Assembly: GCF_004777465.1 (NCBI RefSeq)
Contig: NZ_CP038462.1
Coordinates: 806,001 to 870,000, forward strand
Direction of reading: 5' to 3'
Length of the DNA: 64,000 bases
Source of the DNA: Nocardioides daphniae
Lineage (GTDB): Bacteria > Actinomycetota > Actinomycetes > Propionibacteriales > Nocardioidaceae
Under the pieces are notes generated by a model. The model saw only the letters and a program-made list of their open reading frames with translations. It was not told the origin of the DNA and did not search any database. Of this stretch, positions 49,012 to 50,631 are shown one piece after another; within the stretch, counting starts at the first letter, position 1; each line of letters starts with the position of its first letter. Position numbers and translations under genes: made by a program.

Positions 49012-49109
49012 CGCCCGGCGGCGCCGCCGCGCCGACTCTTCACGTACGCGTAACGCACAGGCTGCGGCGTGTCTCCCCACCGGCGGGGGCGCGAGGCGTA
49101 CGTTCCGAA

Positions 49110-49139
49110 GCATCGGCAGGTGGGGAAGCCAGCCGATGC
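49110..49139 (+). promoter_or_regulatory. Stem-loop in the phoH2 leader
   Basis: GCATCGG (49110-49116) pairs perfectly with CCGATGC (49133-49139) around a 16-nt loop; it lies just before the AGGAGG of the small ORF at 49154. I see no match to a known riboswitch. Confidence 0.4.
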
Positions 49140-49151
49140 CAGGAGGCCCGC

Positions 49152-49167
49152 TCGTGAGCACTCACGA
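49152..49167. promoter_or_regulatory. Perfect 16-bp palindrome in the phoH2 leader
   Basis: TCGTGAG-CA-CTCACGA. It overlaps the GTG start of the 39-codon ORF, so binding of a protein here, or folding of the RNA, would block that ORF. Confidence 0.5.
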
Positions 49168-49273
49168 CTTCGTAGGACACACCGTGGAGGTCGGCGCGCG
49201 CCGCCCGCTGCCCGTGTCCGGGAGGGGTCGGCACTCCGGCCCCAGGGTTTCTTCCTGGCCCGACATGATCTAG
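49154..49273 (+). CDS. Candidate 39-residue leader ORF upstream of phoH2 (phoAT-like position)
   Basis: Begins with GTG 7 nt after a perfect AGGAGG (49141-49146), the best ribosome binding site in the area, and ends 41 nt before the phoH2 start. The peptide starts MSTHDFVGHTVEVGARRPL and has no homologue I recognise. In mycobacteria phoH2 is preceded by a short gene (phoAT) in a toxin-antitoxin-like pair, and this ORF occupies that position. It may start earlier, at ATG 49136. It could also be an accident of the sequence. Confidence 0.45.
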   Translation: MSTHDFVGHTVEVGARRPLPVSGRGRHSGPRVSSWPDMI

Positions 49274-49314
49274 GGCCGGGCGAGAGTGCGCGCGCGTCCT
49301 GTGAGGTGAATCCA

Positions 49315-50631
49315 GTGGCCGCGACCTCTCCTGACCAGCGTCGTACCTACGTCCTCGACACCAGCGTGCTGCTGGCCGACCCGGGGGCGATCCGCCGCTT
49401 CGCCGAGCACGAGGTCGTGCTCCCCGTCGTGGTGATCACCGAGCTCGAGGGCAAACGTCACCATCCCGAGCTCGGCTACTTCGCCCGCAGCGCCCTGCGG
49501 ATGCTCGACGAGCTCCGCGTCGTCCACGGCCGCCTCGACGAGCCCGTCGCGGTGGGGGAGGAGGGCGGCACCCTGCGCGTCGAGCTCAACCACACCGACG
49601 CCACGTCGCTGCCCTCGGGTTTCCGGCTCGGCGACAACGACACCCGCATCCTGGCGGTGGCCCGCAACCTCGCCGACGAGGGTGCCGACGTGACCCTGGT
49701 GTCGAAGGACCTGCCGCTGCGGATCAAGGCCTCGGCCGTCGGGCTGGACGCCCAGGAGTACCGCGCCGAGGCGGTCAGCGCCTCCGACACCGGCTGGACC
49801 GGGATGCAGGAGCTGATGGTCCCGGCCGCCGCGCTCGACGAGCTGTACGACGACGGCGTGCTGGACCTCGACGAGGCGCGCCAGCTGCCCTGCCACACGG
49901 GGCTGGTCATGGTCTCCGACCGCGGCACCGCGCTGGGCCGGGTGGGGCCCGACAAGCAGGTGCACCTGGTCAAGGGGGACGCCGACGCCTTCGGGGTGCA
50001 CGGCCGCTCGGCCGAGCAGCGGATCGCCTTGGAGCTGCTGCTCGACCCCGACGTCGGGATCGTCTCGCTGGGCGGCCGGGCCGGCACCGGCAAGTCGGCG
50101 ATGGCGCTCTGCGCCGGCCTCGAGGCGGTCATGGAGCGCCGCCAGCACAAGAAGGTCGTCGTCTTCCGCCCCCTCTTCGCGGTGGGTGGCCAGGAGCTGG
50201 GCTACCTGCCCGGCTCGGAGAACGAGAAGATGGCGCCGTGGGCCCAGGCGGTCTTTGACACCCTGGGTGCGCTGGTCTCGCCGCACGTGGTCGACGAGGT
50301 CGTGCACCGCGGGATGCTCGAGGTGCTGCCGCTGACCCACATCCGCGGCCGCTCGCTGCACGACGCCTACGTGATCGTCGACGAGGCGCAGTCACTGGAG
50401 CGCAACGTGCTGCTGACCGTGCTGTCGAGGATCGGGGCCAACTCGAAGGTCGTGCTCACCCATGACGTCGCCCAGCGCGACAACCTGCGGGTCGGTCGTC
50501 ACGACGGCGTGGTGGCGGTGGTCGAGAAGCTGAAGGGCCACCCGCTCTTCGCCCACGTCACGCTGACCCGCTCGGAGCGCTCGCCGATCGCTGCGCTGGT
50601 CACCGAGATGCTGGAGAACGTCTCGCTCTGA
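49315..50631 (+). CDS. phoH2: PhoH2: PIN-domain ribonuclease fused to PhoH ATPase/helicase
   Basis: 438 residues. N-terminal PIN domain: 'TYVLDTSVLLADPGAIRRF', 'VVVITELEGKRH' and 'GDNDTRILAVARNLADEG' supply its acidic residues. C-terminal PhoH domain from about 230: Walker A 'GRAGTGKSAMALCAGLEAV', 'PLTHIRGRSLHDAYVIVDEA' with the DEAQ Walker B, and 'VVLTHDVAQRDN'. In mycobacteria this fusion unwinds and cleaves RNA. GTG 49315 follows GAGGTGA by 5 nt and starts just before the PIN domain. Confidence 0.92.
   Translation: MAATSPDQRRTYVLDTSVLLADPGAIRRFAEHEVVLPVVVITELEGKRHHPELGYFARSALRMLDELRVVHGRLDEPVAVGEEGGTLRVELNHTDATSLPSGFRLGDNDTRILAVARNLADEGADVTLVSKDLPLRIKASAVGLDAQEYRAEAVSASDTGWTGMQELMVPAAALDELYDDGVLDLDEARQLPCHTGLVMVSDRGTALGRVGPDKQVHLVKGDADAFGVHGRSAEQRIALELLLDPDVGIVSLGGRAGTGKSAMALCAGLEAVMERRQHKKVVVFRPLFAVGGQELGYLPGSENEKMAPWAQAVFDTLGALVSPHVVDEVVHRGMLEVLPLTHIRGRSLHDAYVIVDEAQSLERNVLLTVLSRIGANSKVVLTHDVAQRDNLRVGRHDGVVAVVEKLKGHPLFAHVTLTRSERSPIAALVTEMLENVSL

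Follow-up and report, generated by a model that had tools for sequence, protein, structure and literature searches.

The interval directly upstream of phoH2, at 49.11 to 49.31 kb of a 64,000-nt stretch of a Nocardioides daphniae contig (NZ_CP038462.1; hereafter, the window), is, as judged by comparative sequence analysis, a conserved structured RNA that contains a small upstream open reading frame (uORF). We read this interval, with a probability of roughly 0.65, as a translation-responsive cis leader of phoH2 with the uORF inside it, through which translation might turn phoH2 either on or off, and mycobacterial phoAT as a derived form of the same leader. phoAT is a short gene cotranscribed with phoH2, and its product is reported to bind PhoH2 and to relieve its growth effect (PMC7390352, PMC4826407). 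PhoH2 itself is described as unwinding and cleaving RNA, with a reported preference for a terminal 5′-AC[A/U][A/U][G/C], and the abstract of the same paper calls its biological function poorly characterized (PMC7390352).

Layout of the phoH2 leader

Positions are those of the window throughout, and the locus lies on the forward strand. An earlier note on this DNA had described an AGGAGG, a 7-nt spacer, a GTG, 39 sense codons, and a stop 41 nt before a PIN-PhoH fusion gene, and this description is exact: the AGGAGG lies at 49141–49146 and the GTG at 49154–49156, the uORF ends with TAG at 49271–49273, and 41 nt (49274–49314) separate it from the phoH2 GTG at 49315, with no overlap between the two frames. 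The fusion is likewise confirmed, with the product carrying PIN_4 and PhoH domains and matching the NCBIfam PhoH2 equivalog NF053827 at 801.4 bits (cut-off: 680). Since the DNA is GC rich and open reading frames are abundant (79 of at least 30 amino acids [aa] overlap 46000–54000), a lone 39-codon frame after a purine-rich hexamer is unremarkable; what raises the uORF above chance is its conserved start, its frame, which is kept through length changes, and its conserved stop position. Missed by the earlier note were the location of the start codon inside a hairpin, UCGUGA-GCAC-UCACGA, and the conserved RNA structure of the interval as a whole. The features of the locus are as follows.

49066..49104, + strand: promoter-like block, GGCGTGTC (49066–49073) and a −10-like TACGTT (49099–49104), conserved in the same-genus alignment; putative promoter
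49109..49280, + strand: match to covariance model R1 (E-value, 7.7e-4)
49111..49138, + strand: P1 hairpin with a conserved GGGGAA loop, close to the presumed 5′ end of the transcript
49141..49146, + strand: uORF ribosome-binding site AGGAGG, overlapping the presumed 5′ strand of P0 (GCCC, 49146–49149)
49152..49167, + strand: P2 hairpin, which holds the GTG start codon
49154..49273, + strand: uORF, 39 codons plus TAG, from comparisons of start, frame, and stop
49224..49243, + strand: P3 hairpin, GGGGUCGG-CACU-CCGGCCCC, from pairing and covariation in alignment A1
49231..49289, + strand: long-range helix (pseudoknot), GCACUC (49231–49236) with GAGUGC (49284–49289)
49245..49248, + strand: GGGU, the presumed P0 3′ strand, with weak pairing here and stronger pairing in relatives
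49254..49280, + strand: P4 hairpin, CCUGGCCC / GGGCCGGG, with the uORF TAG beginning at the end of the loop
49301..49309, + strand: presumed phoH2 ribosome-binding region GUGAGGUGA, from the sequence
49315..50631, + strand: phoH2, PIN-PhoH fusion of 438 aa, from domain and NCBIfam matches

Structure of the leader within the genus

We compared 48 phoH2 upstream loci from the same genus, including the window's own, which comprise 33 long forms and 15 short forms, and aligned all 33 long forms (A1). The conserved blocks of A1 fold as P1, a closing helix P0, P2, P2b, P3, and P4, and RNAalifold also proposes P1, P0, P2, P3, and P4. Shuffles (n = 500) and versions with the partners slid by 1 to 3 columns served as controls; here and in the alignments below, individual rows were the basis for drawing the structures (A1, L056; A2, L137; A3, L012 and L094; A4, L170 and L173), which favors these structures over the slid versions. 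Pairing held in 89.9% of 1,327 alignment cells (slid versions: 35 to 47%), and 22 of 41 pairs were changed on both sides, compared with 13.5 (standard deviation, 1.8) in the shuffles, none of which (0/500) reached 22. Specifically, the percentage of paired cells and the number of pairs changed on both sides were 98.3% and 5/7 for P1, 84.3% and 4/6 for P0, 95.2% and 4/7 for P3, and 90.2% and 2/8 for P4; P2 was paired in 96.9% of cells with zero such changes, and P2b in 74.4%.

The long-range helix, in which the P3 loop GCACUC pairs with GAGUGC, was intact in 99.5% of A1 cells and contained 7 double-change cells, compared with 1.9 in the shuffles; all of them fall in one pair, and by number of changed pairs the helix does not exceed the shuffles (456/500 reach that number). 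Across the 48 loci, GCACTC and GAGTGC occurred together in 30, were both absent from 14, and occurred singly in 4, counts that are uncorrected for relatedness. Among the 15 short forms, 8 carry both motifs, GCACTC then lying in the P2 region, and the other 7 lack both. Folded in parts and compared with shuffles, the window's own leader gave z-scores of −3.69 for P1, −3.23 for P2, −2.51 for 49246–49290 (P4), and +0.59 for one further part, and the P3 stretch (49212–49262), taken in this genome alone, folded no better than shuffles (z = −0.70). A search of the region and ten relatives against Rfam 15 gave no credible leader or riboswitch match, all listed matches falling below the gathering scores.

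The small reading frame

The start CGTG is kept in 33/33 long forms of A1, and the short forms, for which parsing accepted ATG, GTG, and TTG only, divide evenly between GTG (n = 7) and TTG (n = 7) starts in the 14 of 15 that were parsed. The distance from the start to P3 could be taken from 32 long forms with a P3 call (L023 was lost in parsing and L033 because its P3 was missed, and L059, a false hit, was removed from the codon counts). It is divisible by 3 in 29 of these 32 and takes eight distinct values; the three exceptions (L032, L035, and L036) have near-identical leaders. Full-length loci with P3 called number 27, and a phoH2 tree of all of them but L030, comprising 26 loci that are all in frame, requires at least 13 changes of this length; the three out-of-frame loci lie outside the tree, the gene being absent from the fetched stretch. 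The middle stretch of the frame (without L059) contains no stops in 411 in-frame codons, compared with 6/379 and 8/379 in the other two frames, and P4 was called in 38 of 47 loci (no call in 9), in every one of which the uORF stop starts inside the P4 loop. The comparison thus yields the Shine-Dalgarno (SD) sequence, start, kept frame, and stop expected of a leader peptide, whose translation is predicted, and on these sequence grounds the uORF looks like a translated frame.

The peptide tells a different story. Its length ranges from 12 to 52 aa within the genus and falls to 10 aa in four f3 family loci, the parts of it that are conserved lie where the RNA helices do, and searches for domains, PADLOC systems, and NCBIfam families gave no protein-family match (PADLOC returned weak matches only). 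GC contents at codon positions 1, 2, and 3 are 74.9, 68.4, and 74.2% for the uORF (32 loci) versus 76.8, 41.0, and 96.9% for phoH2. Judged by length, family matches, and codon-position GC, the uORF is not an upstream gene for a conserved protein such as phoAT-phoH2 would require, and translation appears to be of greater importance than the peptide it yields.

Distribution of the leader across the class

For the class, we built covariance model R1 (29 sequences) and alignment A3, which uses 29 of 36 prepared stretches, all 36 chosen among stretches in which a core was seen. Pairing in A3 extended to 88.0% of cells (95.5% in P3 and 80.5% in P0), and double-change cells numbered 52, compared with 21.1 in the shuffles. 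Within the window, the sole R1 match at an E-value of ≤1 is the leader's own. Surveyed at an E-value of ≤0.05 with strict filters, 91 of 196 class genomes had an R1 match, once each; 23 of them had supplied training sequences and 68 had not. In all 87 checkable genomes, the match lies 13 to 151 nt 5′ of the phoH2 match and shares its strand (G072, G142, G172, and G234 were not comparable). The alignments and the survey together show what is expected of a leader-peptide attenuator, a conserved RNA structure that overlaps a uORF and lies in cis to one gene. PhoH2 itself is present in 192/196 genomes; the in-frame stops reported for six PhoH2 matches of family f18 turned out to be the codons that end these genes. 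In a swap test on 137 loci, the P3 loop found a downstream partner of at least 6 in 79 loci, compared with about 24 after the loops were swapped (relatedness uncontrolled).

Sequence identity in family f21, which we would guess to be Micromonosporaceae, was 94.8% in the leader, 78.6% at phoH2 third codon positions, and 43.8% in DNA further upstream. The corresponding values were 75.1, 71.2, and 57.6% in the window's genus and 70.4, 63.8, and 64.6% in g12 (Mycobacterium/Mycolicibacterium). Five loci from several families (L082, L083, L095, L096, and L119) have a GGAGG directly before the phoH2 start and no evident uORF or P3; they may represent an ancestral or a reduced state.

Relationship to mycobacterial phoAT

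The earlier note had proposed kinship with phoAT-phoH2, and this kinship is upheld by the shared position directly 5′ of the PhoH2 gene and may be closer than was supposed, as alignment lays phoAT over the same RNA. In alignment A2 (46 of 50 Mycobacterium loci, P0 being imposed by us), P0 and P3 together were paired in 95.4% of cells, with 5 of 16 pairs changed on both sides (11/500 shuffles reach it), and the long-range helix was paired in 92.0% of cells with 6 double-change cells. The RNAalifold consensus fold of A2 pairs the phoH2 SD (GGAGC) with early uORF codons. The Mycobacterium uORF, parsed in 46 of 50 loci, has an upstream, leaderless-looking ATG, often ends at or near the phoH2 start, and meets P3 in the three frames in 37, 6, and 3 of the 46 loci (P3 was misplaced in L128). 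The other genera of family f7 have an SD-led frame; parsing covered 28 of 34 loci (at least L106 and L176 received a wrong start), and of these 28, 22 share one P3 frame and 17 encode 17 to 20 aa. Many f7 uORFs (L170–L203) carry a proline-rich, RGPAPGPR-like segment over P3, possibly a ribosome-pausing stretch.

Alignment A4 of Mycobacteriaceae (26 of 29 prepared stretches, with L179, L183, and L189 left out) includes 5 of the 50 Mycobacterium loci, picked partly for changed loops. P1 and P3 were paired in 94.7% of its cells; for the long-range helix, where the Mycobacterium rows consist largely of gaps, the figure was 96.9%. In A4, Mycobacterium CCGGGCGGTACC...CGTT aligns with CCGGGAGGTTC...CGTG of relatives, which suggests that Mycobacterium lost the earlier SD and start through decay and came to initiate at an ATG further upstream. 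R1 matches three f7 survey genomes (G084, G149, and G159, the last being in the training set) and none of g12. The alignment thus suggests that phoAT of mycobacteria derives from this leader, although R1 itself does not detect it there.

Proposed mechanism and alternative explanations

Under the translation-responsive reading, ribosomes translating the uORF would open P2 and P3 as they proceed and would reach the stop in the P4 loop; the formation of P0, P3, the long-range helix, and P4 near the phoH2 start would then depend on the translation state of the uORF, and phoH2 output would in this way be linked to translation. P3 and P4 overlap with the long-range helix and with the path of the ribosome (alternative pairing was left uncounted), an overlap that is suggestive of mutually exclusive folds. 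Translation might turn phoH2 on by coupling or might keep it off, as in classical attenuators. Coupling is favored by the Mycobacterium fold, in which the phoH2 SD is paired with early uORF codons, and by the frequent ending of that frame at the phoH2 start; attenuation is favored by the excess of leader reads in Mycobacterium tuberculosis. There, phoH2 has a 210-nt 5′ leader with leader-to-gene read ratios of 4.7 in exponential and 11.9 in stationary phase (PMC3207917, Table 8), an attenuation-like profile that the excerpted text of that paper does not discuss for phoH2.

Several observations weigh against the translation-responsive reading. For the window's own leader, the folding advantage over shuffles is only modest (z = −2.15; 7/200 reach it), the predicted minimum-energy fold contains P1, P2, and P3 but lacks P4 as drawn, and the counts leave out another possible pairing, that of the P4 3′ arm with a CCGGCCC close to the phoH2 start, which has mismatches in several rows. 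In A3, doubly changed pairs number 9, one slid version gives 11, and 24/500 shuffles reach 9; five printed loci of families f18, f19, and f20 show long-range pairing at control level only. RNAalifold on A2 chose P3 and not P0, and the central pair of the long-range helix fails in 19/45 Mycobacterium rows. R1 gave no significant match to the Mycobacterium loci (best E-value, 0.18), and under the strict filters of the survey, 105/196 class genomes had no match at an E-value of ≤0.05. In the window's genus and in g12, the leader is only a little more constrained than phoH2 third positions. The expression support, finally, comes from M. tuberculosis and not from the window's organism, and the published ratio could include other reads.

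The earlier note had cast the peptide as the antitoxin or leader equivalent, with a sequence that would be a new partner of PhoH2. An antitoxin that binds PhoH2, in the manner proposed for mycobacterial PhoAT (PMC7390352, PMC4826407), would be in keeping with the phoAT position of the 39-residue peptide and with its frame, which is kept through length changes. We nevertheless consider this improbable: a regulatory leader fits better because the peptide varies widely in length within one genus and shrinks further in f3, has no family match and no protein-like GC pattern, and is conserved where the RNA helices lie, and because Mycobacterium uORFs meet P3 in all three frames. Of that proposal, the translated-looking frame is supported and the new antitoxin partner is not; the earlier note pointed to a real feature and the right relative, and its antitoxin is the weaker reading.

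A purely structural leader, that is, a ligand- or protein-sensing RNA over which uORF translation is incidental, would account for the strong covariation, for an f21 leader more conserved than third codon positions, and for the absence of protein-like codon bias. The kept multiples of 3 on the phoH2 tree (broken by three similar loci outside it), the conserved SD and start, the placement of the stop in the P4 loop, and the lack of a match to any known riboswitch class make it unlikely, and a reading of the conservation as RNA only and non-coding was dropped given the start, frame, stop, and length-change evidence. RNases often regulate their own mRNAs, and with an element tied to phoH2, the leader might be an autoregulatory target that PhoH2 cleaves or unwinds, the activities described for it in PMC7390352; this explanation, which is compatible with translation-responsive control, we regard as a long shot.

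Comparison with known systems

The resemblance to phoAT-phoH2 extends from the short frame directly 5′ of the PhoH2 gene to the P3-type hairpin and the imposed P0-type helix, which pair and covary in mycobacteria and can be aligned in A4 with leaders from other genera of the family. The two differ in that the Mycobacterium frame starts at its leaderless-looking ATG and ends near phoH2, whereas the frame in the window is SD led, starts with GTG, and stops well short of the gene; moreover, phoAT is published as an antitoxin, whereas the window peptide lacks protein-like conservation. The wblC/whiB7 attenuator, in which a uORF mediates transcription attenuation (figure legend of PMC7157823), also places a small frame in an actinobacterial leader, but it serves another gene and is likened here by layout alone, without sequence comparison. 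SCO2532, a WblC-controlled PhoH-like protein, is called a YbeZ ortholog in PMC7157823 and was not used as phoH2 evidence. Like the cis-regulatory leaders and riboswitches of Rfam, the phoH2 leader precedes a single gene, covaries, and includes a long-range helix; unlike them, it has an embedded reading frame. Among the titles and abstract openings listed in searches of the openly accessible phoH/phoH2 literature, a scope outside which most subscription papers fall, none describes it.

Neighboring features

A sigma-70 scan of the region found no promoter site. GTTCAC- and GCGTGTC-like motifs (49044–49073 and relatives) recur by eye 5′ of the presumed −10 in several families and are reversed in some f7 genera (GACACGCC), possibly marking a conserved regulator site. 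A terminator-like site, which is P3 of this genome with a T-rich tail, was rejected, being non-conserved as judged by eye. The gene 5′ of phoH2 encodes a uppS-type prenyltransferase; in six same-genus loci (L005, L008, L010, L023, L024, and L059), the gene end at this place looks desaturase-like by eye rather than uppS, and L010 has a sub-threshold match to the small RNA family ASdes (E-value, 0.059). Right after phoH2, at about 50646–50692, lies a strong inverted repeat, a probable terminator, where microRNA matches fall below gathering scores. On the minus strand, a universal-stress-protein-like gene (50653–51133) is apparently split over two frames, as judged by eye, and is perhaps a pseudogene or a sequencing error; the frame at 50717–51133 had no NCBIfam match.

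Significance

A broader claim we advance tentatively, at slightly less than even odds: that the leader represents an RNA family found across the class and not yet described, which has a translated uORF inside it and gates phoH2 by translation status, that phoAT is this leader with its start moved to an upstream leaderless ATG, and that selection keeps the RNA and its translation and not the peptide. The leader would then stand as an RNA family without a credible match in Rfam 15. Its conservation and apparent translation point to control of phoH2 by translation status, and they call into question the antitoxin role assigned to phoAT, with consequences for the way in which phoH2 is tallied among toxin-antitoxin systems.
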